From: an uncultured Bacteroidales bacterium
GTDB lineage: Bacteria; Bacteroidota; Bacteroidia; Bacteroidales; F082
Direction of reading: 5' to 3'
DNA: 64,000 nt
Assembly: GCA_900318265.1 (NCBI GenBank)
Contig: ONKA01000013.1
Span: forward strand, 37,515 to 101,514
The notes below the pieces were generated by a model. The model saw only the letters and a list, made by a program, of their open reading frames with translations. It was not told the origin of the DNA and searched no databases. Made by a program: the position numbers and the translations under genes. Below are positions 47,820-62,166 of this stretch, piece after piece (positions within the stretch are counted from its first letter, which is position 1; every line of letters starts with the position of its first letter).

Positions 47820-47971
47820 TCACAAAACCTGCAAAACTCTCAAAACTATTTTTTTGTGTCTGTGGGAAGCATGCCAACTGGCTGCTTCCCGGCGACGCAC
47901 AGTTGTGCAGTCGCCACACACTACTCTTTGGAATTGTATTTTGGTTTTGCATTGTTTTGTTAGTTTTGTGA
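47820..47971 (-). mobile_element. Copy A of a 150-bp hairpin element with terminal inverted repeats
   Basis: The ends are TCACAAAAC and GTTTTGTGA, with AT-rich subterminal inverted repeats. The core has two adjacent hairpins: GGGAAGCA/TGCTTCCC (47864-47890) and GGCGAC-GCAC/GTGC-A-GTCGCC (47891-47915). Its reverse complement aligns over the full length with copies B (59458-59606) and C (62019-62166). No open frame; MITE-like or a structured RNA. Confidence 0.8.
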
Positions 47972-47980
47972 TTAAAAGAA

Positions 47981-48742
47981 TTACCAGCTTCCGCTAGCTC
48001 CGCCGCCGCCGAAGCCACCGCCGCCAAAGCCGCTGAAGCCACCGCCTCCGCCGCCTCCAAAACCTCCTCCGCCACCACCTCCCATGGGAATCCAGATGGT
48101 GCGTGAGCCTCTGCCTGTGTATGTCGAATTGGAGCTCCTGAAGATGAAGATGAGGGCGATGATGACCATGATGATGAGCCAAACAGGGATGGGACGGCCA
48201 CCTTGGACATATTCGTCTTGCGTGAACTTGCCCGAGCAGAGGTCCATCATCACGTTGACGGCATTGTCGATGCCTTGGTAGTAGTCGCCTTCCTTGAAAG
48301 CGGGGATCATCTCGTTCTCGATGATGTGTTTTCCTGTGGCGTCGGTGACGTATTCCTCGATGCCATAGCCGGTCTGTATAGTCACCTGACCTTTCTCGCT
48401 GCCTTTCTTGGGTTTGACCACGATGACCGCACCGTTGTTCTTGCCTTGTTGTCCAACGCCCCAGGCGTGTCCGATCTTCCTGCCATACTCATCGATACTG
48501 TAGCCTTGCAGGTCGTCGACAAGCAGGACGAGGAATTGGGTGGAGGTGCTGTCGTTGTAGGCTACCAACTTGTGCTCCAACGAGTTGATTTGTGATGGGC
48601 TCAAAGTGCCGGAATAATCGTTCACCAAGCGTGGGGGATAGGACGGACTTGGCAGTTGGGCTTTCAACGTCGTGCCAAAGGTGAGCAAAACGAGAAGCAG
48701 GCCAAGGAAAAGCGTATATCTTTGTCTGTCAGTTGTTTTCAT
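47981..48742 (-). CDS. TPM-domain membrane protein with Gly-rich tail (YgcG-like)
   Basis: A 253-residue protein. The ATG at 48742 (MKTTDRQRYTLFLG) is preferred over one four codons upstream. The signal peptide ends near residue 28 (LKAQ). The TPM domain (about 35-165) has VNDYSGTLSPSQ, a VLLVDDLQGYS strand and KNNGAVIVVKPKKG, and a membrane helix follows near 190-210. The last 45 residues are almost pure Gly/Phe/Ser, as in YgcG-type proteins. It overlaps the next TPM gene by 14 bases. TPM domains have been given phosphatase or chaperone-like roles; the role here is unknown. Confidence 0.88.
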   Translation of the reverse strand: MKTTDRQRYTLFLGLLLVLLTFGTTLKAQLPSPSYPPRLVNDYSGTLSPSQINSLEHKLVAYNDSTSTQFLVLLVDDLQGYSIDEYGRKIGHAWGVGQQGKNNGAVIVVKPKKGSEKGQVTIQTGYGIEEYVTDATGKHIIENEMIPAFKEGDYYQGIDNAVNVMMDLCSGKFTQDEYVQGGRPIPVWLIIMVIIALIFIFRSSNSTYTGRGSRTIWIPMGGGGGGGFGGGGGGGFSGFGGGGFGGGGASGSW

Positions 48743-49172
48743 AGGAGATGTCATCGGGGATTTCGTTGATGTCGTCGGATTGGTAGGGGAAATAGGTCTT
48801 CAGCTTCTCGCCACAGCGCATGATGCCTTGCTCAAGGCCTTCTACGAAACGGCCTTCCTTGAAGTGGCTCAGCATCAAGTCTTTGACGTCGTCCCAAAAG
48901 CCGTCCTCCACCACGTTGTTGATGCCTTCGTCGCCGAGGATGGCGAACTTGTGGTCCTTGATGGCGAGGTAGATGAGCACGCCGTTGCGAAGCTTGGTTT
49001 CGTTGAGTTTCAGGTGCTTGAAGACGACGAGGCTGCGCTTTTCCACATTGCCTCGACAGCGGGTTTCGATGTGCACTTTGATCTCGCCCGAGGTGTTGAG
49101 TTCGGCCTGCTTGATGGCCTCCACGACGCGGCGGTCTTCCTCATGGTTCAGTATAGTGATGGCGTTCGACAT
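48729..49172 (-). CDS. TPM-domain protein
   Basis: A 147-residue protein with a TPM domain but no signal peptide. The ATG at 49172 (MSNAITILNHEEDRRVVEAI) follows the promoter box; the longer frame from 49235 crosses it. Motifs: AELNTSGEIKVHIETRC, NGVLIYLAIKDHKFAILGD and GINNVVEDGFWDDV. It is paired with the longer TPM protein, a common arrangement often accompanied by lemA, which is not present here. Confidence 0.87.
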   Translation of the reverse strand: MSNAITILNHEEDRRVVEAIKQAELNTSGEIKVHIETRCRGNVEKRSLVVFKHLKLNETKLRNGVLIYLAIKDHKFAILGDEGINNVVEDGFWDDVKDLMLSHFKEGRFVEGLEQGIMRCGEKLKTYFPYQSDDINEIPDDISYENN

Positions 49173-49191
49173 GATGTGTTTCTTTGAAATG

Positions 49192-49199
49192 CAAAAATA
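49192..49199 (-). promoter_or_regulatory. -7 promoter element of the TPM gene pair
   Basis: TATTTTTG on the minus strand, 20 bases before the ATG at 49172. Confidence 0.65.
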
Positions 49200-49386
49200 G
49201 TCATTTTCCGTAATACTGCATTTCAAAGTTGTCATATCCTGATTATTTTGTTTCTTTGCAATTCAATTCGTTCCAATGCCACCTCTGCGGAAGCAGCGAC
49301 CGCAACCGAGGACAAACGGTGCGGGCGGTGTGCTGCCGTCAGTAAAGCAAACCGAACATCCACGAAGAGACTTCTTTCAAAAACAA

Positions 49387-49420
49387 CATGACCGCTTCAA
49401 CAATCGTCAAAGCGGTCATG
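49387..49420 (-). terminator. Stem-loop downstream of htpG
   Basis: CATGACCGCTT pairs with AAGCGGTCATG around an 11-12 base loop, about 25 bases after the htpG stop. There is no strong T-run, so it may be a 3' end stem rather than a full terminator. The rest of the gap (49200-49386) shows no supported gene. Confidence 0.5.
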
Positions 49421-49445
49421 GTCATAGTCACAAGTCATTGTCGAA

Positions 49446-51365
49446 TTACAGCTTCTCCATATTCCTCTTCACAAACTCGCTCAAATCCTTGCCCTTCAGC
49501 AAATTCTTTGAGAGCAAGGCGAGGTCGTAGATCTGCCGAATCGTGGCTTCCTGCGTGGCTTCGTCCTTGTCCAAGAGGCCAGTGATGACGGGGCTGTTGG
49601 TGTTGAGCATCAGCGTGTAGCTGTCGGGCATCGAGCCGTAGAACGACATTGGGCCGCCGCCCATCTGCTCCATCTCCTTCATGCGGCGCATCCACTCGTT
49701 TTGGGTGACCTCCACGGGCGCGGCTTCAGCACCTTCGTTGCTGAACTCCACGTTGAACTTCACCTTGTCGATGACCTTCTCGAAGGCGGCCTTCACGGTC
49801 TCCTTCTGCTTGTCGTCGAGGCCCGAGGCGGCTTCCTTGTCGTCCTTCACGATGAGTTTGTCGATGGTGTTGGAGTCCACACGGGCAAACATCGCGCGGT
49901 TGTCGTCGCCCTTTTCGCCTTCCTTCTGCTCGTAGGCACTGATGAAATGCGGGTCGAGGATGCCGTCCATCATCAGGACGTTGTAGCCCTTGGCCTTGGC
50001 GTTCTCGATGTTGGTGTATTGGTCGTCCTTGTCGGTGGCGTACAGATAAACGAGTGCCTTGTTCTTGTCGGTCTGGTTTTCCTTAATCAAGGTCTTGTAT
50101 TCCTCGATGGTGTAGTATTTGTCGTCGGTGTCCTTGAAGAGGAAGAACTTCTCGGCGCGCTCGTAGAACTTCGGGTCGCTCATCATGCCGTATTCGATGA
50201 ACACGCGGATGTCGTCCCAGTTTTTCTCGTAGGCTTCGCGGTCTTTCTTGAAGAGTTCTTCCAGTTTCTCGGCCACCTTCTTGGTGATGTAGGTCGAGAT
50301 TTTCTTCACATTCTGGTCGCTTTGCAGGAACGAGCGGCTGACGTTCAGCGGGATGTCGGGCGAGTCGATGACGCCGTGCAGCAGCGAGAGGAACTCGGGC
50401 AGGATGCCTTCTACGCTATCGGTGACGAAGACCTCGTTGCAGTAGAGTTGGATCTTGTTGCGCTGGAACTCGTAGCGGTTCTTCACCTTCGGGAAATAAA
50501 GGATGCCCGTGAGGTTGAAGGGGTAGTCCACGTTGAGGTGGATGTGGAACAGCGGCTCGCCAAAGTTCATCGGGTAGAGCGTGTGGTAGAAGTCGTTGTA
50601 TTCCTCGTCCTTGATGTCGGTCGGGGCTTTCTTCCACAGCGGCGCCACGTCGTTGATGATCCAAGGCTTCTCCACTTCCTTGGTCTTGGGCTTGCCGTCC
50701 TTGTCGGTTTCGCCTTCGATTTCTTCCTGCACCTTGCGCGTGCCGAACTGAATCGGAATGGGCAGGAACTTGCAGTATTTGTTGAGCAGTTCGCGGATGC
50801 GGCCTTCTTCGAGGAACTCGGCGGCATCGTCAGCGATGTAAAGGATGACGTCGGTGCCGCGGTCGCCCTTCGGGATTTCATTCATCGTGTACTCCGGGCT
50901 GCCGTCGCATTCCCAGATGACGCCGTTCGCGCCCTCTTCCTTGCAGGACTTCGAGATCAGCGACACCTTCGAGGAAACCATGAAGGCGGAGTAGAAGCCC
51001 AAGCCAAAATGTCCGATGATGTTGGCGGCTTCGGCCTCGCTTTGTGTCTTGAACTTGGCGATGAACTCCTCGGCACCCGAGAAGGCGATTTGGTTGATGT
51101 ACTTATCGACCTCTTCGGCGTTCATGCCGATGCCGCGGTCGCGGACGGTGAGGGTCTTTTTCTTCTTGTCGACTTCCACCTTGATGGTGAGGTCGCCTAA
51201 CTCGCCCTTGAACTCGCCCGAGGCGGCCAAGGCTTTCAGCTTTTGCGTGGCGTCCACGGCATTACTGATGATTTCGCGCAGGAAAATCTCCTGGTCCGAA
51301 TAGAGGAACTTCTTGATGACAGGGAAAATGTTTTCTGTCTTTACTCCAATGTTACCGGTTTGCAT
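49446..51365 (-). CDS. htpG: Hsp90-family chaperone HtpG
   Basis: A 639-residue cytosolic ATP-dependent chaperone. The GHKL ATPase domain shows the catalytic Glu and Asn in FLREIISNAVDA, the DRGIGM motif and GHFGLGFYSAFMV. The middle domain has the conserved FFHTLYPMNF-like region and LNVSRSFLQSD. The C-terminal dimerisation domain ends at KRNMEKL. Length is normal. No exact TAnnTTTG box lies upstream; instead the leader region holds a large palindrome (51407-51481). Confidence 0.97.
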   Translation of the reverse strand: MQTGNIGVKTENIFPVIKKFLYSDQEIFLREIISNAVDATQKLKALAASGEFKGELGDLTIKVEVDKKKKTLTVRDRGIGMNAEEVDKYINQIAFSGAEEFIAKFKTQSEAEAANIIGHFGLGFYSAFMVSSKVSLISKSCKEEGANGVIWECDGSPEYTMNEIPKGDRGTDVILYIADDAAEFLEEGRIRELLNKYCKFLPIPIQFGTRKVQEEIEGETDKDGKPKTKEVEKPWIINDVAPLWKKAPTDIKDEEYNDFYHTLYPMNFGEPLFHIHLNVDYPFNLTGILYFPKVKNRYEFQRNKIQLYCNEVFVTDSVEGILPEFLSLLHGVIDSPDIPLNVSRSFLQSDQNVKKISTYITKKVAEKLEELFKKDREAYEKNWDDIRVFIEYGMMSDPKFYERAEKFFLFKDTDDKYYTIEEYKTLIKENQTDKNKALVYLYATDKDDQYTNIENAKAKGYNVLMMDGILDPHFISAYEQKEGEKGDDNRAMFARVDSNTIDKLIVKDDKEAASGLDDKQKETVKAAFEKVIDKVKFNVEFSNEGAEAAPVEVTQNEWMRRMKEMEQMGGGPMSFYGSMPDSYTLMLNTNSPVITGLLDKDEATQEATIRQIYDLALLSKNLLKGKDLSEFVKRNMEKL

Positions 51366-51406
51366 ATCGTTAAGTGTTTAAAATTCGAGATTTAAGATTT
51401 ATAATT

Positions 51407-51481
51407 GGCCGATGGCTTATGGCTCATAGCCTATGGCTGCCTTGAAGTTGAGGCAAGCCATAGGCTATAGGCCATCGGCCA
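51407..51481. repeat. 75-bp palindrome of GGCTATGGC-type units
   Basis: Arms of about 30 bases built from GGCCGATGGC, ATGGCT, ATAGCCTATGGC and GCCT pair with the reverse complement around TGAAGTTG. It lies between htpG and the divergent lipoprotein gene. Confidence 0.75.
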
Positions 51482-51554
51482 TAGTCAAATAGTGTGCCAA
51501 TGGGAAAACTGACATTTTGGCAAGGAATTGTTGACTTGAATGATAGAAGTTTTC

Positions 51555-51562
51555 TATTTTTG
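51555..51562 (+). promoter_or_regulatory. -7 promoter element of a lipoprotein gene
   Basis: TATTTTTG, 19 bases before the ATG at 51582. Confidence 0.65.
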
Positions 51563-51581
51563 CAATCAAAATCTTTTTGGT

Positions 51582-52418
51582 ATGAAAAAAAACATGTTTG
51601 TATTGGCTTTTTGCCTTATTGTATTGGCGTTTTCATCTTGCTCGTCGTTGCGAAACACCACACCGAAGAATTTGCCTCCTTTGAGTGAAGTGTCGCCGAT
51701 TCTTGACAGCATCGTTGAGGAAGGATACCAATTGTATTATTCCGAAAGGGCAAATTGGATTGCAACAGACCTTGTGTTTGAAAGGTATGGGATGGACAAG
51801 CTTGGCAGATCCATTACATATCAGGCCGATAACAATCTTTGGACGGTTTGTTTCTTTGATAAAAACAATGAGAAATGTCTTTTGGAATGTCGATTTGATA
51901 TCAAGTCTGGTAATACTGTGACTTTGGATTCCATCCGTCCTATTTCTACTTTTGAAAAAGAACAATTGCAGCGAAAAGAGACAATGCTTAACGAGGCCAT
52001 CAGCAAGTATGGCTCTGAATTAAAGTTTGCTCCTGAAACATTTGGTAATCCGAACATTGATTTTGTTCGCATGAATGACCATCTGACGCGGGTGTATTTT
52101 CTTCAAGGTACAATAAGGCATGATGTGATACCTTTTGGAAATGATTATTCGATTGATTTTGATGAGAATTTGAAACCAATTGCTTTCCGTCGCTATCATC
52201 GATCGCTAATAGATAGCCCCACAAAAAATGACAAAGGTGAAGAAGCCAAATTTCTCTTTCACACCCATTTGAAAGACAATCCTTTTATTACTCCTACCGA
52301 TATTTGCAACTTTCTGCTTTATCGCCCGAAAAATATGGATGGTTTCATGGTTGCAAGCGAGGCGTACAACTGTATGTTTATGTTCTCTATTAACCAGCAC
52401 CGCATCGTCGTTCAGTAA
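51582..52418 (+). CDS. Putative lipoprotein of unknown function
   Basis: A 278-residue protein. The start at 51582 (MKKNMFVLAFCLIVLAF) follows the promoter; the lipobox LAFSSC puts the lipidated Cys at residue 20. The mature part has no domain I recognise. It alternates charged and aromatic strands (NNLWTVCFFDKNNEKCLLEC) and looks beta-rich. The DNA is more AT-rich than its neighbours, which could mark a more recent acquisition or weaker constraint. It stands alone. Confidence 0.7.
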   Translation: MKKNMFVLAFCLIVLAFSSCSSLRNTTPKNLPPLSEVSPILDSIVEEGYQLYYSERANWIATDLVFERYGMDKLGRSITYQADNNLWTVCFFDKNNEKCLLECRFDIKSGNTVTLDSIRPISTFEKEQLQRKETMLNEAISKYGSELKFAPETFGNPNIDFVRMNDHLTRVYFLQGTIRHDVIPFGNDYSIDFDENLKPIAFRRYHRSLIDSPTKNDKGEEAKFLFHTHLKDNPFITPTDICNFLLYRPKNMDGFMVASEAYNCMFMFSINQHRIVVQ

Positions 52419-52614
52419 GAAAGAATCATAAAGCTACTATACGCTACTTTTCATTGATTTTGATTGAAAATGCCTTTTATCTGCGGTAAAAACGTCGCTG
52501 AATAAAAGCATGTTTTGATGATTCGAGGATTGGAAAACCTTGTTTTAATGTGTTGATAATAACAGAATTATGTATAATTATTCTGTTTTGTGTCCACGGA
52601 AACAAAATACTTTC

Positions 52615-52622
52615 TACTTTTG
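52615..52622 (+). promoter_or_regulatory. -7 promoter element of a methyltransferase gene
   Basis: TACTTTTG matches TAnnTTTG, 71 bases before the ATG at 52694. The leader between them is the 15-bp tandem repeat. Confidence 0.55.
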
Positions 52623-52633
52623 TAATAATTCTA

Positions 52634-52682
52634 TTACTAAGTAGTTTGTTACTAAGCGAGTTATTACTAAGTGGTTTATTAC
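52634..52682. repeat. Three 15-bp tandem repeats in a methyltransferase leader
   Basis: Three units starting TTACTAAG at 52634, 52649 and 52664, plus a partial TTAC, differ only in their last seven bases (TAGTTTG, CGAGTTA, TGGTTTA). The rest of 52419-52614 is AT-rich without a supported gene. Confidence 0.8.
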
Positions 52683-52693
52683 ATATCACAACT

Positions 52694-53518
52694 ATGAGCG
52701 AAATCTACGACTTCTATAACAACGGTGCAGAGATAGGCCGCTTGGAGCGCGGCCTGGGCATCGTGGAGTTTCATAGGACAAAGGAAATCCTGGCACGCTA
52801 CATTGATGGCGGCAAGGTGATTTATGACATCGGAGGCGGCATCGGGATGTATGCGGCTTGGCTGGCAAAGAAAGGCAACGAGGTGCATCTGATTGAGTTG
52901 GCAGAAAGTGCCGTGGATTATGCCAAAGCCAATATGATGCAGGATTGCACTTTCATTGCCGAGACGGGTAATGCCTTGCAAGTCAATCGCCCCGACGAGA
53001 GTGCCGATGTGGTGCTACTGATGGGGCCACAGTACCATCTGCGCGATAGGGAAGAGCGTTTGCAATCGTTACGCGAGGCGTTTCGCGTGTTGAAGAAAGG
53101 TGGTCTCCTGGTGGTGGCGGGCATCTCCAAGTTCAGTTCTATGACGTGGGCTTTGTCGGTGTATGGCGAGAAAAAGAATGCCTCACTCATGGAATTCCTC
53201 GATGACCCTGTGTTTTTCAATATGATTAAGGGCGAGATGACCACGGGTGACCATATTCGGCCTGCGGAATACCCAAAGTTCATCGCGGAATCGTATTTCA
53301 CTACGGCGGAAGAGATGAAATCGGAAATCGATGAAGCGGGATTTATGGTGGAGAAAGCCCTCGCCGTGGAAGGTTGTATCTGGTTTACGCCGCACCTCAC
53401 GGAGAAATGGGAGGATGAGGCCAGCCGTGAACGCCTCCTCGACATTGTCCGCATCACAGAATCGGAGCCCGAGATGATGGGCATGAGCCCGCATTTTTTG
53501 GTGGTTGCAAGGAAATAA
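52694..53518 (+). CDS. SAM-dependent methyltransferase
   Basis: A 274-residue class I methyltransferase. The ATG at 52694 (MSEIYDFYNNGAEIGRLERG) is preferred; a frame extension to 52550 passes through the tandem repeats and yields an artefactual Leu-rich stretch. Motif I is VIYDIGGGIGMYAAWLAKKG, motif II HLIELAE, motif IV ADVVLLMGPQYHL and post-motif LKKGGLLVVAG. Similar proteins in Bacteroidetes are annotated only as methyltransferases; a small-molecule substrate is likely. Single-gene unit. Confidence 0.87.
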   Translation: MSEIYDFYNNGAEIGRLERGLGIVEFHRTKEILARYIDGGKVIYDIGGGIGMYAAWLAKKGNEVHLIELAESAVDYAKANMMQDCTFIAETGNALQVNRPDESADVVLLMGPQYHLRDREERLQSLREAFRVLKKGGLLVVAGISKFSSMTWALSVYGEKKNASLMEFLDDPVFFNMIKGEMTTGDHIRPAEYPKFIAESYFTTAEEMKSEIDEAGFMVEKALAVEGCIWFTPHLTEKWEDEASRERLLDIVRITESEPEMMGMSPHFLVVARK

Positions 53519-53531
53519 ATGTGATGAAGAC

Positions 53532-53555
53532 GGCCCTTCGACGGGCTCAGGGACC
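53532..53555. repeat. 24-bp dispersed repeat, copy 3, intergenic
   Basis: Reverse-orientation copy of the repeat at 32857-32880, with one difference (GACGGGCTC for GACAGGCTC). It lies 13 bases after the methyltransferase stop. Confidence 0.78.
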
Positions 53556-53604
53556 TGCCCATTCATTTGTTTAAGAAAACTGTTAATTGTAACAAAACAA
53601 TCAT

Positions 53605-53612
53605 TATTTTTG
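53605..53612 (+). promoter_or_regulatory. -7 promoter element of the T9SS adhesin-like gene
   Basis: TATTTTTG, 48 bases before the ATG at 53661. Confidence 0.65.
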
Positions 53613-53660
53613 TGGGCAAATCATAGAACTAACGGAGATAAAAATCAAAGAAAACCAAAT

Positions 53661-56111
53661 ATGAAAAAACTGTACGCTTTTATTGCGATGTGGCTTCTTG
53701 CAGGAAGCGCCTTCGCCCAAGTGCTTGTCAACGAGACTTTTGAAAATGGTAACACGGGCTGGAAAGCAGGCATCACTATCCCTGATGACAACGAAGCCCG
53801 TGGCAGAAAGCCCCACACTGGCGACTGGTACATGTATGCCACCTATAACACCGACGTGTGGATTTACAAGGAAATCAACGTAACGGCAGGGGATTATTAC
53901 CGTGTTTCGTTTTGGTACGCCACTTGGCATGTCGATCACTTCAACCTGGAAGTGAAAGCCGGCGCATCCGCCAATCCTTCGGCGATGACGGAAACGGCGG
54001 TGCCGATGATGGTGGTCGCCAACGAGGAGTTTGAACAGACCTCGGGCGTGTTTCAGGCTACCAGTTCGGGTTCTTATTATGTAGGTTTCCACAGCGTGGC
54101 TGACAATGGGCCTTGGTATTTGTCCATTGATGATATCATCATCGAGCAGACTGCACAGTACAACTTCAATGTGGAGCAACTCACCGCCGACACGTCCGTT
54201 TATTTCGGTGAGCCTGCCTATCTGCGCTTCCGCCTCAGCAATACTGGCGAACAGTCAGATACTTATCAATTCAACAGCACGGGCAACTTGCCGATTGAGT
54301 TCTACCAGAATGGCACACAGGTGAACCAAATCAACGTGTCTTACAATAGTTCGGTGGAATTGGTGGCCAAGACGACTTTGCCGATGAATCTGAACAACAA
54401 CGAAGTTGTCCATGCCACCTTCGATGTGGTTTCCAACCATTCCGCTCCTACACAAAATGCTGACTTTGCCATCACAGCCTTGGCACCTTACGCTGATTTC
54501 CCTCTTGAGGAGGGCTTTGAGAATGACTTTGTGCCCTTTGGCTGGCAAAACAACATTACCAACGGGAACTATGCCTTCGACCGCATCACGGAAGGCTCCA
54601 CGCCGAGTGCGACGCCGCATGAAGGTAGCCAGTATATGGCGCGATTCTACACATACACCAATCCTTCAGGTGGTTCGGCTGAATTGGTCTCGCCCAAAAT
54701 GAATCTGAACGAACACGACAACATCGTCAGTTTCTGGATGTTCCGTAACAGCAACCCGAATATCAATAAGGACGACCGTATCAATGTGTATTACAACGCT
54801 GTGCCGCGTTCGGAAGGCGGACAATTGCTTGGCACTATCCACCGCTGCACCTATAAAGAACCCGTCGTCGCCGATGTGGATGACTGGTACGAATATGCCT
54901 TCACCTTCGATTGCCCCGACGACTATGGTTTCATCATCTTTGAGGGCGTCAGCGACTACGGATGGAACCTTTATCTCGATGACATCTTCATCAATAGTTC
55001 TTCGGAAGACCATGAGGCTCCCACGGTGATCGCTGTCAACGGTAACCAAACCTACGCCGATACTGAGATGAACCTCACTTTGCGTGTCCACGATGCATCC
55101 GACATGCCTGCTACGTTGGCAGCTACCTATACCATTTGGGGTCATTCCCATGATTTGACATTTACAAGGGCAGGCAAGGGCAACTATGACTATACAGCCA
55201 CCATTCCTGCATACGACAATCATACCCATGGCACTTTGACCGTGCAGCTTGTTGATGCCTTGGGTAACAGCGCAACGTCGGAGGAAATCCCGATTCGTTG
55301 GGATTATCAACGCCCGCTGCTCTATGAGACCTTTGAGGAATGCAGCAGCATGTTCTCCATGCCCGAAGGCTGGACCACAGACGGCAACCCGACATGGTGG
55401 GATTGGACGGTACAAGGTACGGTGTACTATACGGACTACTATGAAGAAAGCTTTGTTGTGAATCCCCATCGTGGCAATAAGCACGCTGTGCTGGAATGGG
55501 ACAGCAGCGAGAGTCCCGCGGCACAAGACCAGACTTTGATTACGCCTGTTTTGACCATCACGAGACCCACCGTTTTGCAGTTCTGGACTTGGGTGCAGTA
55601 TGGCACCGATGGCTATGATCGTTTTGTGGTCAGGGTGTACGACACCTACGACGGCACTTGGGACGACAAATGGGATGCCGCTGACATGCCTTACGGACAA
55701 ATCAACGCTTACGACGAGCCGATTTCCATCAACTTGGATGAGTATATCGGCCGTAACATCAAGATTGGATTCAGAGGTTACAACACCTTTGGCGAGTGGC
55801 TGGCCTACGACTGGTTTGTCGACGATGTGAAGGTCGTTCCGACCGACACTACCGATGTGAATGTGAATGAGTTGGCTGCCATGAAGTTTGATGTCTATCC
55901 CAATCCGGCAAAGGACAAAGTTGTCATCGAAGCACAAAGCAATATCCAGCAGGTGACGCTGATGGGCATCAAGGGTGAGATGCTGGAGGACAGAAAGGCC
56001 AATTCGAACAAGGTAGAACTGAACCTGGAAGGCTATTCCAAAGGCATATATGTCGTCCGCATCGTGACTGAAGACGGCGTGGCCACACAAAAAAACAACT
56101 TGATTGAATAG
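53661..56111 (+). CDS. T9SS-secreted cleaved-adhesin-like protein
   Basis: An 816-residue secreted protein. The signal peptide (1-19) ends GSAFA before QVLVNETFENG. Three jelly-roll domains of the choice-of-anchor/cleaved-adhesin type can be seen, near 22-170, 275-450 and 545-735, each with an F-E-N/E-G start and an aromatic WYLSIDDIII-, WNLYLDDIFI- or WFVDDVKV-type end strand. A CARDB-like and a HYR-like module lie between them. A T9SS sorting domain (VYPNPAKDKVVIEA...) forms the last 75 residues. In Porphyromonas such domains occur in haemagglutinins and gingipain adhesins. Likely binds host or dietary polymers; no catalytic motif seen. Confidence 0.87.
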   Translation: MKKLYAFIAMWLLAGSAFAQVLVNETFENGNTGWKAGITIPDDNEARGRKPHTGDWYMYATYNTDVWIYKEINVTAGDYYRVSFWYATWHVDHFNLEVKAGASANPSAMTETAVPMMVVANEEFEQTSGVFQATSSGSYYVGFHSVADNGPWYLSIDDIIIEQTAQYNFNVEQLTADTSVYFGEPAYLRFRLSNTGEQSDTYQFNSTGNLPIEFYQNGTQVNQINVSYNSSVELVAKTTLPMNLNNNEVVHATFDVVSNHSAPTQNADFAITALAPYADFPLEEGFENDFVPFGWQNNITNGNYAFDRITEGSTPSATPHEGSQYMARFYTYTNPSGGSAELVSPKMNLNEHDNIVSFWMFRNSNPNINKDDRINVYYNAVPRSEGGQLLGTIHRCTYKEPVVADVDDWYEYAFTFDCPDDYGFIIFEGVSDYGWNLYLDDIFINSSSEDHEAPTVIAVNGNQTYADTEMNLTLRVHDASDMPATLAATYTIWGHSHDLTFTRAGKGNYDYTATIPAYDNHTHGTLTVQLVDALGNSATSEEIPIRWDYQRPLLYETFEECSSMFSMPEGWTTDGNPTWWDWTVQGTVYYTDYYEESFVVNPHRGNKHAVLEWDSSESPAAQDQTLITPVLTITRPTVLQFWTWVQYGTDGYDRFVVRVYDTYDGTWDDKWDAADMPYGQINAYDEPISINLDEYIGRNIKIGFRGYNTFGEWLAYDWFVDDVKVVPTDTTDVNVNELAAMKFDVYPNPAKDKVVIEAQSNIQQVTLMGIKGEMLEDRKANSNKVELNLEGYSKGIYVVRIVTEDGVATQKNNLIE

Positions 56112-57405
56112 GAGAGAAGCACATAGAAAACGCATTCCGCTCTATGCCAAGATCTTACTGGGCATGGGCTTGGGTCTGGGCTTCGGCTTTCTGGCCATGG
56201 CCTTGCATTGGGAAGGCTTTGTGCACGACTGGGTGGCGCCTTGGGGCGACATCTTCATGCGCCTGCTTAAGTTGATTGCCGTGCCCTTGGTCCTGGTGTC
56301 GCTCATTTTGGGTGTCGTCAACCTGAAGGACATCCGCAACTTGTCGCGCATTGGACTGAAAACCATATTGATCTATGTCTGCACTACTATATTGGCTGTG
56401 AGCATAGGCTTGGGTATGGTCAGCGTTATCAAGCCAGGAAAGGTCTTCCCGAAAGACCGACAGACGGAGTTCATGGAGCGCTATCAGCAGACTGTCGTGG
56501 AGCGCGAGGCGCAGATGCAGCAGGTGAAGGATGAGTCACCCTTGCAGTTCGTGGTCGACATGGTGCCCGAGAACCTTTTCAAGGCCTTGGGCGACAACTC
56601 CAAGATGCTGCAAATCATCTTCTTCGCCTTGCTATTCGGCGTGGCTTTGATTGTCGTGGGACCTTCAAAAGTGCCCTCGCTGGTGCGTTTCTTCCAACAG
56701 TTGAATCTTGTTTTGCTCAAAATCATCGACTTCATCATGGCCTTTGCGCCATACGGCGTGTTTGCCCTAATGGCCGCCTTGATTGTGGACTATGCGGGCG
56801 ATGTGGGCATTTTCTCTGCTTTGGGTTTGTATGCCCTGACCGTGGTGCTAGCCTTGGCCGTCATTATCTTGCTGGTGTATCCCTTCATCATGCGGGTCTT
56901 TGGCAAGCGAACGATGAAGCAGTTCTTTAAGGCGGCGGCGCCCGTGCAGATGCTGGCCTTCACCACCAGCTCGAGCGCGGCCACTTTGCCCTTGACCATG
57001 GAACGCACGCAGAAGCATTTGGGTGTCTCTGAGGAAGTGTCGTCGTTTGTTCTGCCCGTGGGTGTGACCATCAACATGGATGGCACGAGTTGCTATCAGG
57101 CCGTGGCAGCGGTGTTTTTGGCACAGGTCTTAGGCCTGGACTTGACCTTCGGTCAGATGCTGCTCATTTTGGCCACAGCCACCATCTCATCCATTGGCAC
57201 ACCGGGCATCCCTGGAGGCTCTATCGTGATGTTGATGATTGTGCTTGATTCGGTCGGCATCCCGATTGAAGGCTTGGCACTCATCTTGGGCATCGACAGG
57301 CCTTTGGACATGTTGCGCACCGTGGTGAATGTGACGGGCGACATGACGGTGTCGTGCGTTGTCGATGAAGGCAACAAAACAAAAACGGCCGGTCACGAGG
57401 CGTGA
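56104..57405 (+). CDS. Dicarboxylate/amino acid:cation symporter (DAACS family)
   Basis: A 433-residue membrane transporter of the GltP/DctA family, importing glutamate, aspartate or C4-dicarboxylates with Na+ or H+. The serine-rich motif reads AFTTSSSAATLPLTM, the helix-7 motif is NMDGTSCYQ, and the helix-8 region has DRPLDMLRTVVNVTGD. The start is uncertain: there is no ATG before residue 21, yet the conserved RIPLYAKILLGMGLG begins upstream of that ATG (56164). A TTG at 56104, overlapping the preceding stop, is used here. An insert of about 40 charged residues (FPKDRQTEFMERYQ...) after helix 3 is typical of Bacteroidetes members. Confidence 0.88.
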   Translation: MNRREAHRKRIPLYAKILLGMGLGLGFGFLAMALHWEGFVHDWVAPWGDIFMRLLKLIAVPLVLVSLILGVVNLKDIRNLSRIGLKTILIYVCTTILAVSIGLGMVSVIKPGKVFPKDRQTEFMERYQQTVVEREAQMQQVKDESPLQFVVDMVPENLFKALGDNSKMLQIIFFALLFGVALIVVGPSKVPSLVRFFQQLNLVLLKIIDFIMAFAPYGVFALMAALIVDYAGDVGIFSALGLYALTVVLALAVIILLVYPFIMRVFGKRTMKQFFKAAAPVQMLAFTTSSSAATLPLTMERTQKHLGVSEEVSSFVLPVGVTINMDGTSCYQAVAAVFLAQVLGLDLTFGQMLLILATATISSIGTPGIPGGSIVMLMIVLDSVGIPIEGLALILGIDRPLDMLRTVVNVTGDMTVSCVVDEGNKTKTAGHEA

Positions 57406-57432
57406 CCAGCCGTTGTTTGTGATTTTGATGCT

Positions 57433-57825
57433 TTACTCGTCTAGGCTAAGGTCGCATCCCAGTTGTTCGGCTTTCTTTTGCGCTTTGTCGCTGAGGTCTT
57501 CGATGATCTTGTTGAATTGTTCTTTTTCTTTTTCGGTCATCTTCTCTTCAGCAGCGTAATCGTCGCCACCCAATTCAACGGCGAGTGCACCGAGGGCCAC
57601 GGCAAAAGCCGCTTCTTTCAGTTCTTCGCAATCCTTGGTGTCTTTGATCATCTTCTCAACCTCGTCGAAAGCTTCCTTCATTTCCGTAAATTGCTTGGAG
57701 GCTTTCACTGTTTTTGTTTCGGTCTTAGCCTTGTCGTCTTTTCCGTTTTCGTTTTTGCCGCCGCCGCACTGCGTGAAGGCGAACAGCATCATGCCCGCGA
57801 GGGCGATAATCAGCGTTTTCTTCAT
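57433..57825 (-). CDS. Small lipoprotein of unknown function
   Basis: A 130-residue protein. The ATG at 57825 (MKKTLIIALAGMMLF) follows a promoter box; the lipobox FAFTQC places the lipidated Cys at residue 20, followed by GGG and a charged linker. The rest is helical and highly charged (KEAFDEVEKMIKDTKDCEEL), with two further Cys. No domain recognised. It converges with the symporter gene, 27 bases away. Confidence 0.75.
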   Translation of the reverse strand: MKKTLIIALAGMMLFAFTQCGGGKNENGKDDKAKTETKTVKASKQFTEMKEAFDEVEKMIKDTKDCEELKEAAFAVALGALAVELGGDDYAAEEKMTEKEKEQFNKIIEDLSDKAQKKAEQLGCDLSLDE

Positions 57826-57860
57826 GATGTTGATGTTTAGTTGGTGTTTTTTAATCGCAA

Positions 57861-57868
57861 CAAAAATA
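57861..57868 (-). promoter_or_regulatory. -7 promoter element of a lipoprotein gene
   Basis: TATTTTTG on the minus strand, 35 bases before the ATG at 57825. The adjacent gap 57905-57960 contains the palindrome CTTTACACTGTAAAG and two GTTACAC copies that could be an operator for either side. Confidence 0.6.
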
Positions 57869-58056
57869 GAAAAAATACGAAAAAGGCAACTGGTTTTTGA
57901 ATAGAAGTCCACTTTACACTGTAAAGTTTTGTTACACCACTGTAAAATAATGTTACACTTTGATTTAAGTCTAATTTTTTAAATCTTTGAATATTAAATA
58001 GTTGTGTTTTTGGCATGCGATATGTTTTTGTTTGGCACAAAGAAAATATGTGTAAA

Positions 58057-59451
58057 ATGAAAGCTAAACATACCTTTTTCATTTTGATGATGTCGCTTGG
58101 AGCCTTGACATTGGTCAAGGCTCAGGACACCACTACCATGGACCTCAAAGCCTGCATGCGCTATGCCGTGGAACATTCCACCAAGATGCGCATTGCCCAA
58201 GCCGACAACCGCGATGCACAGATCGATCGCCGCGATGCCATCCTTGCGGCCTTCACGCCTACGATTGAAGGAAGCACCTACGCCTATTCCAACTTCGGCC
58301 GTAGCATCGACCCTGAGACCAACACCTATATCCGAACGACCTCGTTCCACAATGGTTATAGCCTCTCGGCGGGCATCAACCTCTTCAATGGATTTCAGGC
58401 GGTCAACAACCTGAAAATCACTAAGACGGCACAATTGATGGGCTTGACCAAAGAGCAACAAACCGAAGACCAGATCTGTCTCGCCACCATGGAAGCCTAC
58501 TGCAATGTGTTGTACTACACCGAGATGCAGGAAGCCCTGCAGGCGCAGGTGGCCACAGCGGAAAAGTCCGTGCAGTTGGCCACGAGGCAGGAACAACTGG
58601 GACAGAAATCCCATGCCGACGTGGTGCAGATGCAGAGCGACCTCGCCGAGCGACAGTACCAACTGACCACCTGTCGGAACAACCTCAATAATGCCATCGT
58701 CACCCTGAAGGATGTGATGTTTTGGCCGATTGAAAAACCGTTGAAAATTGACGAATCGTTTTCGCGGCTGCCGCAATGCGACAGCCCTACAAACGAAACG
58801 GCTGTAGGGCTGTCACACCGTGGCAGCCGAACGGATGAAATTTCCCAAATGGTGGAATTTGCCAAAACCAATATGCCTGCCGTCCTTTTGGCCGAAGGCA
58901 CGATGAAAACCGCCCGTCTCGCGCTGAAAACCGCCCGTTGGCAACTGCTGCCCCGACTCTCGCTCTACGGTGGCTGGTCGTCGAGTTACTTCACCTATCC
59001 GGGCATGGAAGGCTATGTGCCCACGCCGTATTTCGAACAGTTGAAGAACAACGGCGGCGAGTATGTGCAACTCTCGTTGAGCATCCCCATTTTCGACCGC
59101 CTCTCGAAACACTCCAACATCGCAAAGCGGAAGAATGCCTACGACCGTGCCCAAGCCGACTATGAGCAAGCCCTCCAAACGGTGGAGGCCGAGGTGCGCC
59201 GCGCCATTGCCGACCGCGACGGCAGCGCCGATGCCCTGCGCCAAGCCGACATCCGCGCCGAGTTGCAAGAGGAGGCTTTCTCCTTGAATACCAAACGTTT
59301 CGAGCAGGGATTGATTTCTTCTATCGAGTACCAAACGGCATCAAACAACTATCTCAACGCCCTTGCGGAACAATTGAACGCTAGGCTTCAATACTATATC
59401 AAGTGCAGCGTTGTAACTTATTATGGAGGGACACCGTATTTAGAACAATAG
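58057..59451 (+). CDS. TolC-family outer-membrane efflux protein with in-frame palindrome insertion
   Basis: A 464-residue TolC/OEP protein. The ATG at 58057 (MKAKHTFFILMMSLG) starts a signal peptide ending VKAQ; ATGs at 58048 and further upstream are less likely. Two OEP repeats of long helices follow (YAVEHSTKMRIAQADNRDAQ; and TARLALKTARWQLLPRLSLY). Between them, residues about 237-260 (SRLPQCDSPTNETAVGLSHR and on) correspond to a 65-bp palindrome (58765-58829) with no counterpart in the family. It forms the exit duct of the MacB-like system encoded downstream. Confidence 0.9.
   Translation: MKAKHTFFILMMSLGALTLVKAQDTTTMDLKACMRYAVEHSTKMRIAQADNRDAQIDRRDAILAAFTPTIEGSTYAYSNFGRSIDPETNTYIRTTSFHNGYSLSAGINLFNGFQAVNNLKITKTAQLMGLTKEQQTEDQICLATMEAYCNVLYYTEMQEALQAQVATAEKSVQLATRQEQLGQKSHADVVQMQSDLAERQYQLTTCRNNLNNAIVTLKDVMFWPIEKPLKIDESFSRLPQCDSPTNETAVGLSHRGSRTDEISQMVEFAKTNMPAVLLAEGTMKTARLALKTARWQLLPRLSLYGGWSSSYFTYPGMEGYVPTPYFEQLKNNGGEYVQLSLSIPIFDRLSKHSNIAKRKNAYDRAQADYEQALQTVEAEVRRAIADRDGSADALRQADIRAELQEEAFSLNTKRFEQGLISSIEYQTASNNYLNALAEQLNARLQYYIKCSVVTYYGGTPYLEQ
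58765..58829. repeat. 65-bp palindrome inserted in frame in tolC
   Basis: The outer arms CGGCTGCC and GGCAGCCG and inner arms GACAGCCCTACA and TGTAGGGCTGTC are perfect inverted repeats. The frame stays open through it. Confidence 0.85.
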
Positions 59452-59457
59452 TATTTA

Positions 59458-59606
59458 TCACAAAACCGACAAAACTTGCAAAACAATGAATAATTCCAAT
59501 GAACAGTGTATGGCGGCTCCACAACCGTGTCGCCGCTGGGAAGCAGCCGGTTGGCGTGCTTCCCACAACCCTAAAAACGGTTTTGAGGGTTTTGCAGGTT
59601 TTGTGA
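59458..59606 (+). mobile_element. Copy B of the 150-bp hairpin element
   Basis: TCACAAAAC...GTTTTGTGA ends. Hairpins: GCGGC-tc-CAC/GTG-tc-GCCGC (59513-59536) and GGGAAGCA/TGCTTCCC (59538-59564) with loop GCCGGTTGGCG. It fills most of the gap between tolC and the permease gene. Confidence 0.82.
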
Positions 59607-59642
59607 TTAACAATTAAACGATTAAACAAACAACAATCAACA

Positions 59643-62012
59643 ATGAATAGCATCTCTGACAAATTAATCAAAATCCTATCGTTGGGCATAGGTCTCGCCA
59701 TCGGCATCGTGCTGATTGCCAAGGTGTGCTTCGAATTGTCGTACGATAGTTTCTACAAGGATGTGGACCGAATCTATATGATTACGGAAAGTATCATCTT
59801 TCAGGAAGGTGGCGACCCCGATGACTTCTGGGGTACTTCGGGCGGCATTGCTCCGGGTTTCAAGGCTGAAGTGCCAGGCGTGGAAGCCGCTACACGTTAT
59901 TCCAACTTGCTCAATGGTAACCTTTATGACGAAAACGACAACCTCATCACGGGTCTTTGCATCGGTGCCGATACCTGTTTTTTCGACTTTTTCAACCGAG
60001 AATTTCTTGCTGGCGACCCGATGCAGGCCTTGCAGGAGTACAATGGCGACATTGCCGTCAGCCGCAGCTTTGCGGAGAAGTTGGGTGGCGTGAACGAGGC
60101 CATAGGCAAACAAATCTATAGTGAAGTTTGGGGGCCGAAAACAAGACTGACCGTGGTGGGTGTTTTTGAGGATTTTCCGAAAAACGGTAGCATCCAATGT
60201 GACATCGTGACAACTATTGCTGCATTCGGTGAGTGGAGCATTAACAATTGGCTGGGCAACGACCGCTATCGCGGTTTTGTCAAACTGGCGCCTAATGTGG
60301 ATCCCAACAGCCTGAAAGATGCCATCCGCAAGATGCAGGAAGCGCACCAGCCTTTGGAGGAATTGGAGCGTGACGGCTCCACGATTTGGTACACGCTGAC
60401 CCCTCTCGCGACCATGCATCGCCATGAGCCTACTATCAAAAACTATGTGCTGATTCTGTCGGTGGTGGCGGCCTTGCTGCTTTTGGTCTCGGTGCTCAAC
60501 TACCTGTTGATGGCGGTTTCGGATGTGGTGCGCCGTTCCAAGGAGATGGGCGTTAGGAAATGCTACGGTGCCAGCGCAGGCAGCATCTACGGAATGCTCA
60601 TCAAGGAGACGGCCTTGAATTTGTTGGCTTCGTTGGCCGTGGCAGCCTTGCTGATATGGGCTTTCAGCGGGGTCATCGAGTCGCTGTTGGGCGTGCCAGT
60701 TGCCAGCCTTATGGTGCCGCAAACCCGTTGGGTGCTTGTCGGTATCATCGCTTTCATCTTCCTGGTCTCTGCTCTCATCCCAGCGATGATGTTCGTCAGG
60801 ATTCCTGTCTCGACAGCCTTCAGTGGATACAGGGAAAACAAGCGTCGTTGGAAACTCACATTGCTGATGGTGCAAGTTGGCATCAATGTCATCTTGCTGC
60901 CTTTGGTCATCGTGGCTGATAGGCAATACAACTCTGCGATGAACGCTGATATGGGCTACGATTACGAGCAGTTGCTGTATGTCCCGTTGGAAGGAGCGGA
61001 CAAGGACAATTTGATACTGATTACAGAAAAACTGCGGCAATATCCCGAAGTGGAGGCAGCAGAGCTGACCTATAGCATCCCATTGGACAAGACGTCTGGT
61101 AACAATATCATGCTGCCCGACAACCCGACGAAGTATCTAATGGGCGTGTGCGACCAATACATGGCGACGGAGGGTTTCTTCGACTTGATGGGCTTCCGTT
61201 TGACAGAGGGCAAAGCGCCTTCAAAGCCGAAGGATGTGGCCGTGAGCCAAAGTTTCGTGAAGGAGATGAACCTTTATGCCGACTGGAGCGACGGCGCAGT
61301 GGGCAAGGACATCCTGATTTCGGAGCACAGCGATGGCGACGATGATGTTTACACCATTTGTGGCGTTTATGAAGATTATGTCATCGGCTCGATGTTGGGC
61401 AACGACGACCGTGCGAGCATCCGCTTCTGTGGGAACATGGATTGGAACTATGGCCGCGAAGACTGGTCGATGGTGATGAACACCTTGGTGGTGAAGGTGC
61501 GTGAGGTGAATCCCGAAGCCATCGCCAAGGTGAAAGCAGTCATCGAGGAATGTCTGCCCGAGCGGAACAATGTCGAAGTGACGCCTTATACCGAGTTGGT
61601 CAAGAAGGAATACACCCACCTGTATCAGATGCGGCGCACATTCATAATAGGAGCCTTGTTTGCTTTGGCGATTGCCTTGTTTGGTCTGATAGGCTTTGTG
61701 CGCGACGAGGCTAACCGCCGCAGCAAGGAGGTAGCCATCCGCAAGGTGAACGGGGCAGTGGCGGGCGAAATCATCCGTATGTTCGTGGCGGATGTGCTGA
61801 AACTGGCTGTGATTGCCGCCTTAATTGGCGTGGCGATAGCCTATTTCCTCGCCGACAAATGGCTGGAGTTGTTCGCCATGCGCATCGGCCTCTCGCCGCT
61901 CTATTTCATCATCGGCGCGGTGTCGGTCTTGCTTATCGTGACTGCCGTGGTCGTCATGAGCAGCAACCGCGTTGCCCGAATGAATCCTGTTAAGTCTTTG
62001 AAGAATAATTGA
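59643..62012 (+). CDS. ABC transporter permease, MacB/FtsX type with two FtsX domains
   Basis: A 789-residue inner-membrane permease. Helix 1 lies near 8-27, followed by a MacB-type periplasmic domain (YDSFYKDVDRIYMITE...), an FtsX domain near 265-390 with the SKEMGVRKCYGAS signature, a second periplasmic domain (about 425-660), and a second FtsX domain near 670-785 with SKEVAIRKVNGA. It ends RMNPVKSLKNN, typical of Bacteroidetes members. Such two-module permeases export peptides, lipoproteins or drugs together with an HlyD adaptor, TolC and a separate ATPase, all encoded here in order. Confidence 0.9.
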   Translation: MNSISDKLIKILSLGIGLAIGIVLIAKVCFELSYDSFYKDVDRIYMITESIIFQEGGDPDDFWGTSGGIAPGFKAEVPGVEAATRYSNLLNGNLYDENDNLITGLCIGADTCFFDFFNREFLAGDPMQALQEYNGDIAVSRSFAEKLGGVNEAIGKQIYSEVWGPKTRLTVVGVFEDFPKNGSIQCDIVTTIAAFGEWSINNWLGNDRYRGFVKLAPNVDPNSLKDAIRKMQEAHQPLEELERDGSTIWYTLTPLATMHRHEPTIKNYVLILSVVAALLLLVSVLNYLLMAVSDVVRRSKEMGVRKCYGASAGSIYGMLIKETALNLLASLAVAALLIWAFSGVIESLLGVPVASLMVPQTRWVLVGIIAFIFLVSALIPAMMFVRIPVSTAFSGYRENKRRWKLTLLMVQVGINVILLPLVIVADRQYNSAMNADMGYDYEQLLYVPLEGADKDNLILITEKLRQYPEVEAAELTYSIPLDKTSGNNIMLPDNPTKYLMGVCDQYMATEGFFDLMGFRLTEGKAPSKPKDVAVSQSFVKEMNLYADWSDGAVGKDILISEHSDGDDDVYTICGVYEDYVIGSMLGNDDRASIRFCGNMDWNYGREDWSMVMNTLVVKVREVNPEAIAKVKAVIEECLPERNNVEVTPYTELVKKEYTHLYQMRRTFIIGALFALAIALFGLIGFVRDEANRRSKEVAIRKVNGAVAGEIIRMFVADVLKLAVIAALIGVAIAYFLADKWLELFAMRIGLSPLYFIIGAVSVLLIVTAVVVMSSNRVARMNPVKSLKNN

Positions 62013-62018
62013 TTATTA

Positions 62019-62166
62019 TCACAAAACAAACAAAACTTGCAAAACAATGATAAAGTCCAAAGAAAGCGTGTGGCGGCACGCAACCGCGTTGCCGCCGGAA
62101 AGCGGGCCGGTTGGCCGCTTTCCCCAACCTAGGAAAAAGGTTTTGAGGGTTTTGCAGGTTTTGTGA
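62019..62166 (+). mobile_element. Copy C of the 150-bp hairpin element
   Basis: TCACAAAAC...GTTTTGTGA ends. Hairpins: GGCGGCACGC/GCGT-t-GCCGCC (62072-62096) and GGAAAGCG/CGCTTTCC (62097-62123) with loop GGCCGGTTGGC. Relative to copies A and B, the second stem differs on both arms with pairing kept. It lies between the permease and adaptor genes. Confidence 0.82.

Follow-up and report, generated by a model that had tools for sequence, protein, structure and literature searches.

The window analysed here is a stretch of 64,000 nucleotides from an uncultured Bacteroidales bacterium (C22:37515-101514 of the source genome, G000, 2.98 Mb). It contains three copies, A, B and C, of a short repeat element, and this text describes that element and a larger relative of it, which carries a GxxExxY gene. 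An earlier note on the same DNA had placed three copies of an inverted-repeat element here, aligning end to end, and both the positions and the alignment are confirmed. The copies and their parts are the following.

47820..47971, minus strand: copy A of the short element, 152 bp, with hairpins at 47864-47915
47820..47846, minus strand: terminal nonamer array at one end of copy A (CAAAACnnn, three times)
47944..47971, minus strand: terminal nonamer array at the other end of copy A
59458..59606, plus strand: copy B of the short element, 149 bp
59458..59484, plus strand: left nonamer array of copy B
59512..59537, plus strand: hairpin H2 of copy B, with a GGCGGC stem and the loop box CAACCG
59538..59564, plus strand: hairpin H1 of copy B, with a GGGAAGCA stem, the loop box CCGGTTGG and one bulged base
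59580..59606, plus strand: right nonamer array of copy B, inverted relative to the left one
62019..62166, plus strand: copy C of the short element, 148 bp, with hairpins at 62072-62123
62019..62045, plus strand: left nonamer array of copy C
62140..62166, plus strand: right nonamer array of copy C

The names of the neighbouring genes are readings of predicted open reading frames (ORFs). Copy A is flanked by an FtsE-like ATPase gene and a TPM-domain-like gene, both on the minus strand. A TolC-like gene (58015-59451) stops 6 bp before copy B, and a MacB/FtsX-like gene (59643-62012) follows 36 bp after this copy; copy C lies 6 bp past the stop codon of this second gene and 34 bp before an HlyD-like gene (62201-63469). 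Copies B and C are 83% identical to each other. Their apparent counterparts on another stretch, L198:1842-1990 and L198:4373-4521, form an identical pair 2.5 kb apart, apparently as the result of recent gene conversion or replacement. The three copies also represent a local cluster, i.e. 3 out of the 23 paired copies of the source genome fall within 14.4 kb (47820-62166). No Rfam family reached its gathering score within the window.

Each end of the element consists of three CAAAAC units (CAAAACnnn) with a spacing of about 9 bp, and the two ends are mutually inverted; this regular array is what the note had described as AT-rich subterminal repeats. The termini TCACAAAAC/GTTTTGTGA are present, as are both hairpins. 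The third CAAAAC unit, which was not demanded by the search pattern, was found in 182 out of 200 ends. The 3-nt array spacers are free to vary, with 0.312 substitutions per site in comparisons of orthologous copies. In the source-genome copies the spacers of the left and the right array do not match by eye, for which reason an RNA stem between the two end arrays was rejected. Between the arrays there are two adjacent GC-rich hairpins, H2 and H1, whose loop boxes (CAACY and RGTTG, respectively) are both conserved; with these two hairpins the whole unit becomes a rough palindrome. In three copies (L155:6511-6657, L244:4784-4931 and C13:100144-100300 of the source genome) a palindromic insert of the CATTCCGAATCAAGTTCGGAATG type takes the place of the H1 loop, meaning that one repeat is nested in the hairpin of another.

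In addition to the 23 paired short copies (135-211 bp), the source genome contains a half copy (C29:123113), a solo end (C5:25240) and a 1.7-kb copy with a gene inside. Copies elsewhere, on which the note had made its interpretation depend, do exist: a DNA search with copy B gave matches in 28 of the 60 genomes of the genus, source included (25 with two or more matches, 3 with a single weak one). Exact occurrences of TCACAAAACNNNCAAAAC on both strands number 25 in G047, 15 in G021 and 57 in G024, and those of the reversed pattern 0 in each, so that the array is well outside chance expectation. A pattern scan of the named genomes gave at least 117 stretches; those listed come from uncultured Bacteroidales or Bacteroidia and from bacterium F082, several of them from rumen, abomasum or faeces. 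One set of copies comprised 85 from named contigs and 23 from the source genome, and a hairpin search of 100 loci gave 112 matches, 4 of which duplicate a listed copy on its opposite strand. The note had also proposed a covariance-model search of related Bacteroidales. The hairpin model R1 (built from 55 out of the 66 sequences whose bulge lies 3') did find the element outside the source genome, but not outside the genus: with strict filters it matched the source and one other genome of the genus among 247 genomes across the order, and it had no match in a third genome of the genus within the 247. The hairpin pair therefore looks genus-restricted.

The note had further suggested looking for a transposase gene with the same ends. 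A larger, gene-bearing form was indeed found, but its gene belongs to the GxxExxY nuclease family and not to the HUH transposases, so the statement that the element has no coding capacity holds for the short form only. This long form (about 620-700 bp) has the inverted nonamer arrays and the hairpins of the short element, with the gene located between H2 and H1. The example from G021 (L249 1249-1893, 645 bp), found by seeking ends far apart, has the order array, H2, a second small hairpin, an ORF of 144 amino acids, a GCATCC/GGATGC hairpin, H1 and array. The ORF matches TIGR04256 with an E-value of 7.6e-38 (129.5 bits, as opposed to a curated cut-off of 35) and PF13366 (PDDEXK_3, with a PD-(D/E)XK fold) with an E-value of 3.8e-36; it is also faintly Cas4-like, below the cut-offs, and a sequence search of solved structures gave no useful match. 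Since the motif RLDFLV...(I/V)ELK(S/T), which contains the D...(D/E)xK active-site residues, is present in all 12 members of the clade described below, the product is predicted to be a PD-(D/E)XK nuclease.

Relatives of this gene were found in 39 of the 60 genus genomes, and a clade with at least 67% identity in 12 of the 60, with one copy in each. All 12 clade genes are flanked by CAAAAC arrays on both sides (the right array of L272 has one changed unit, and L277-L279 have GAAC at the outer tip of both ends), and none of the 18 more distant GxxExxY loci that were fetched has such ends (L285 has one stray, one-sided match). R1 follows the same division: it matches all 12 clade loci, eleven at a modest 24-29 bits and L280, the most diverged of them, at 18 bits (E-value 0.076), and has no match on the 18 more distant loci at E-values up to 1. 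All 12 genomes with the nuclease clade are among the 28 element carriers; by hand calculation the chance of this is about 2e-5 (28 carriers) or 4e-6 (25 carriers), values that are too optimistic given the relatedness of the genomes and the genome sizes. The source-genome copies of 175-211 bp retain the inner GCATCC/GGATGC hairpin of the long form.

The 12 long forms occupy three sites, in eight, three and one genome, respectively. Site I, the one with eight, has an RGG-tailed helicase-like gene on one side and a menA-like gene on the other (names read from the sequence). When L269 and L277, which are at different sites, are compared, the homology covers positions 1392-2046 of L269, where the element is at 1390-2034; it stops within about 12 bp of the arrays. 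The homology being bounded by the element edges, the long form is a discrete unit that has moved. At site I the ratio of nonsynonymous to synonymous substitution rates is 0.02-0.10 in 22 out of 28 pairs, the other 6 having saturated silent sites. Among 30 fetched junctions of site I, 16 (plus-strand loci) were readable: the element is intact in 4 (8 with the separately compared loci), its ORF is mostly deleted in 2 (L358, L361), there is an empty 5-bp gap in 2 (L369, L372), 7 have another, AT-rich repeat element, the source genome included, and 1 has a third kind. We consider it probable, though by no means certain, that the window copies are non-autonomous derivatives, similar to miniature inverted-repeat transposable elements (MITEs) or REPINs, of a small mobile element whose sole gene encodes the GxxExxY nuclease. 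The long form is likely to be the parent of the short element; this direction of descent is the one we infer.

The AT-rich element of site I is about 140 bp long, with AAAATC-type repeats and a GGATTCGCTTCGCGAAGAAATC-like hairpin. It is located upstream of the menA-like gene in L351, L352, L360, L363, L364, L367 and L368 and fills the operon gap that holds the nuclease element in other species. The third kind of element, in the site I gap of L354, has a GGGGGATT palindrome.

The earlier note had proposed that the fold of the short element is under selection. The two-sided stem change it had seen is real (GGGAAGCA/TGCTTCCC in copies A and B, GGAAAGCG/CGCTTTCC in copy C), and the covariation of the three copies extends to 104 distinct sequences. 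In a model-based alignment of these 104 cores, which was fitted to the structure and thus leans towards it, 96.4% of 2,030 cells are standard pairs (85.3% after shuffling) and 215 cells are changed on both sides (50.3 after shuffling), with none of 500 shuffles reaching either value; 17 out of 20 pairs show two-sided changes (7.9 after shuffling). None of the slid structures tried on this alignment comes near. The covariation agrees with that in a MAFFT alignment of 121 cores, in which H2 was taken from alignment columns and H1 was paired by a best-complement script (out of 127 non-redundant elements 2 longer than 153 bp were left out, leaving 125, and so were a further 4, L155, L187, L201 and L244, with an insert or odd core). 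In this alignment pair 12-19 is G-C in 45, A-T in 44 and C-G in 30 out of 120 cases, and 103 of the 121 cores have a single bulged base in H1, on either side.

A comparison of orthologous copies (108 comparisons, not independent) gave 0.108 substitutions per site in the stems versus 0.238 in linkers and loops. Two-sided changes resulted in a Watson-Crick pair 104 times and in a G-U pair 3 times, 59 one-sided changes left a G-U pair, and a pair was broken by 127 one-sided and 31 two-sided changes. The selected fold proposed by the note is thus upheld in as much as covariation and slower stems show constraint; the constraint is incomplete, and the uncompensated arm changes which the note had named as speaking against it were in part observed. 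In other words, the hairpin structure is constrained but not frozen. G-U pairs are scarce (32 of 2,030 cells by hand sum), which favours a DNA hairpin over an RNA hairpin, although the latter is still conceivable.

Covariation may also arise from mutation rather than selection. Palindromes are prone to template switching, a process that perfects imperfect palindromes, and the few G-U intermediates and the frequent two-sided changes, common even between orthologous copies, are what such a process would leave behind. Against it stand the conservation of the two loop boxes (CAACY and RGTTG), the presence of similar hairpins in the long form and the single H1 bulge retained in most cores, and we find this explanation of the covariation doubtful.

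In a sample of 100 short copies with 250 bp of flank on both sides, a stop codon that closes a frame of 60 or more codons lies no more than 15 bp from an end of the element in 87 cases, as compared to 0.105 of 1,937 random points, and copies are often found 7-45 bp upstream of start codons. With respect to the stop-bearing gene, the H2-H1 orientation is sense in 51 and opposite in 24 of these 100 copies, and 12 have stops at both sides. Many sites are common to several genomes or species; at one of them a 211-bp variant in the source genome corresponds to a 149-bp copy in another genome, the flanks being 96% identical. In 302 pairwise comparisons of matching sites, which are not independent, the element has the same orientation in 223 cases and the opposite one in 36, there is no element in 22, and 21 are unclear.

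A host cis-regulatory intercistronic RNA, i.e. a hairpin pair serving as a leader, processing or attenuation element for the downstream gene, could be suspected from the adjacency to stops and starts, the excess of sense over antisense copies, the co-varying pairs and the conservation of sites across species. We regard it as quite improbable. Firstly, the genes beside the source-genome copies have no common function by eye. Secondly, 24 copies are antisense only, and matching sites have copies in the opposite orientation or no copy at all. Thirdly, wobble pairs are rare and the array spacers do not pair. It is highly improbable, in our opinion, that the element is an invertible DNA switch (inverton) flipping upstream of genes. 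Such a switch would have inverted-repeat boundaries and opposite orientations at matching sites, and one metagenome-assembled genome has two near-identical duplicated loci, L140 and L237 on neighbouring stretches of one contig, in which the element bodies are oppositely oriented and 93% identical. However, in most of the inverted comparisons listed the identity of the elements is near 0.8, which is what replacement by a different copy would give, and no usual Bacteroides-type promoter was recognised inside the element by eye. An integron attC or group II type insertion, suggested by the position after stops and the folded ends, was set aside by reasoning only, with no search for an integrase or a reverse transcriptase.

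The GxxExxY family reaches far beyond the CAAAAC clade: TIGR04256 matches 74 out of 148 sampled Bacteroidota genomes, with up to 12 matches in one. Inverted-repeat scoring of the flanks, which covered 79 out of 80 loci, gave a score of at least 12 in 11 out of 12 loci of the clade itself, in 0.58 of 38 other genus loci and in 0.59 of 29 phylum loci, as opposed to 0.08 of 79 swapped controls. Many of the arms consist of phased CRRANN units (CAGATT, CGAATT, CAGAAA, CGAAAA, CAGAG, CAAAG). At least two units per arm in the inverted sense are present in 52 of the 80 loci (11 of them of the CAAAAC clade) versus 9 of 80 in the wrong sense. The 9-bp spacing is plain within the genus, and in the phylum set 9 and 10 barely exceed other spacings. 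On the protein tree the class of repeat unit changes 19 times compared to 45.4 after shuffling, with none of 200 shuffles as low, a result that is inflated by near copies and shared ancestry and in which 23 out of 76 rows are unclassed; the CAAAAC clade forms one side of a well supported branch. L307, L282 and L342 were left out of this tree; L342 is the same gene as L302 of the source genome and was retained in the flank-score, spacing and phased-unit counts. In the source genome CACRRATTNCACRRATT has exactly two occurrences, which are the two arms of one GxxExxY gene, and there is no CACRRATT array without a gene.

Stops are close in the wider family as well: a long-frame stop lies within 15 bp of the outer edge in 25 out of 46 strong-arm loci, as compared to 0.088 of 920 random points (10 out of 10 in the CAAAAC clade, 15 out of 36 outside it). 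L304 and L306 have only the element in common, and there are 8 GxxExxY matches in plasmid records. In Bacteroides finegoldii and Bernardetia clear inverted arrays are found in operon gaps. The Treponema locus has a single unit, barely above shuffled flanks, the Sphingomonas locus an array at one side only (by eye), and the flanks in Fusobacteria, Prevotella, Gemmatirosa and Persicobacter are not above shuffled ones, the gene ends being guessed in the last two.

The flanking arrays bear on the role of the gene, since the short copies might be ordinary MITEs that depend on an unlinked conventional transposase acting in trans, with the GxxExxY gene as cargo captured in one copy. Terminal inverted repeats, high copy number and the lack of an ORF are in line with this, as are the many carriers without the nuclease, and nested cargo does occur: the 1.7-kb copy of the source genome (C26:49286-50996) contains an ATPase_2 gene (L049:3433-4902), preceded by a palindrome, that matches the PADLOC candidate defence family PDC-S27 (E-value 1.2e-182). 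We nevertheless consider this explanation unlikely. When gene-bearing copies were sought in the source genome, C26 was the sole long paired copy, and of 20 stretches around ends lacking a near exact partner in three element-rich genomes, L249 was the only one with two good ends at a distance (most of the other ends have a degenerate partner or none that could be seen; among the 20, genes were read in L249 only, and the single ends of G024 were sampled in part). Other GxxExxY clades are also located between inverted nonamer arrays, and the array unit tends to follow the protein tree, which is not expected of cargo. Finally, no target-site duplication was seen in the diverged flanks.

The ATPase itself was considered as a mover and rejected: none of 29 loci from other genomes has element ends in the fetched stretch (several being at contig ends), and a 90%-identical relative in G044 is in a locus without the element. 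It is treated here as nested cargo. Its relatives are present in 39 of the 60 genus genomes, four of which have over 20 matches each, and by our own count in 26 out of 28 element carriers versus 13 out of 32 non-carriers.

Returning to descent from a nuclease-encoding element, the nonamer arrays, which segregate together with the nuclease, are putative binding sites of the nuclease or its complex. The hairpins would be extruded as DNA structures and then cut or copied. The nuclease, a single-copy gene in the genomes where it is found, would act in trans on the dispersed short copies, and repair or template copying would then spread, replace or flip them; its part as mobiliser is suggested by linkage, boundaries and conservation. 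With less certainty, nuclease and hairpins might be kept as a host-useful or stably parasitic pair, as proposed for REPIN-RAYT. A wider proposal, for and against which the evidence seems to us evenly balanced, is that GxxExxY genes are the sole genes of an unrecognised class of bacterial mobile elements. Such an element would consist of an inverted nonamer array, a small PD-(D/E)XK nuclease and a second inverted array, it would be inserted just after stop codons inside operons, and repeat unit and nuclease would co-evolve. The class would be present at least in Bacteroidota and perhaps in other phyla, and in one rumen lineage it would have given rise to dozens of hairpin-bearing short derivatives like the three in the window. 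Cognate inverted arrays would turn GxxExxY, a common annotation, into a testable enzyme-and-site pair and would explain a repeat family of rumen Bacteroidales; a REPIN-like system built on another nuclease fold would make the long persistence of such pairs comparable across enzymes.

A number of observations are at odds with this interpretation. The nuclease clade was seen in only 12 of the 28 carrier genomes; it is missing from G018 (97% complete, 16 matches) and G047 (100%, 17 matches), and the source genome (89% complete) has no gene of the clade, so that short copies persist without the nuclease. As the ATPase family co-occurs with the element too, co-occurrence alone proves little. No target-site duplication was seen in the flanks of short copies or against empty gaps, where the flanks have diverged, and no short copy was seen to move. 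The pair-breaking changes between orthologues, counted above, belong here as well. In the wider family, outside the CAAAAC clade, about four in ten of the GxxExxY flanks are below the inverted-repeat threshold, a few CACRRATT arrays away from any gene found are present in G027, G045, G010 and G042, and G017 has five GxxExxY genes and no CACRRATT array. Spread into dozens of short copies was seen for the CAAAAC clade only. Movement is rare, since nearly all close GxxExxY pairs (at least 78% identity) are orthologues at a single place.

With regard to known systems, the closest parallel is REPIN-RAYT. RAYT genes are single copy and under purifying selection. REPINs, as far as the available accounts describe them, are likewise short extragenic units with two inverted hairpins, present in many copies per genome, persisting for long and linked to a chromosomal enzyme. 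The enzyme is different, however, an HUH transposase there and a PD-(D/E)XK GxxExxY protein here, and here the ends are inverted nonamer arrays and the gene is inside a unit with the same ends. By analogy, the short copies would stand to the GxxExxY element as MITEs do to the insertion sequences from which they derive, or as REPINs do to the RAYT gene on which they depend. No linked HUH (Y1) transposase was found, the gene of the long form being TIGR04256/PF13366 instead; the rest of the genome was not searched for RAYT. The GTAG and CGTC tags named in PMC3733652 were not seen by eye at the hairpins, which mostly begin with GGCGGC and GGAAAGC or GGGAAGC.

Correia elements, ERIC and BOX are intergenic palindromic repeats of roughly 100-150 bp. 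By description, the short element resembles them in size and in its intergenic palindromic character, and we know of no linked enzyme of the GxxExxY kind for any of them. Rpn proteins ('recombination-promoting nucleases') are also PD-(D/E)XK enzymes, for which no flanking nonamer arrays are known to us. Their family, PF04754 in PMC5350276, is not that of GxxExxY; the same paper connects them with a RecA-independent transfer of DNA in E. coli, and Rpn was later reported as toxin-antitoxin defence (PMC10327210).

The note had set its folded element apart from MITEs, and this opposition was not borne out: the element, itself non-coding, looks derived from one that encodes a nuclease. It is short, multi-copy and without an ORF, has terminal inverted repeats, and appears to be a relative, shortened by internal deletion, of the gene-bearing element that shares its ends, given the direction of descent that we infer. 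The available part of PMC4596501 describes bacterial MITEs of the same kind, BrickBuilt and MITE464/PgRS of Porphyromonas gingivalis, which are short and intergenic with terminal inverted repeats and no ORF; the ends of BrickBuilt are closest to the insertion sequences ISPg1 and ISPg9. The present element differs from BrickBuilt in that nonamer arrays form its ends and its larger form has a GxxExxY nuclease only; nor was a target-site duplication seen in its diverged flanks. In the literature as available to us no function is described for GxxExxY, and one gene so called lies beside a reverse transcriptase (PMC8934634, available text). Searches by the nonamer sequences, GxxExxY, PF13366/PDDEXK_3 and Bacteroidetes MITEs gave no description of such an element in accessible sources, among which subscription journals are sparsely covered. 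That related nuclease genes of the phylum are often located between similar inverted nonamer arrays suggests an undescribed type of mobile DNA.

A minor observation concerns the menA-like gene next to site I. A segment of about 50 bp within this gene (L269:2144-2194) has many matches elsewhere in the same genomes, and in the source genome too, at 84-100% identity, and is thus a repeat within a gene.

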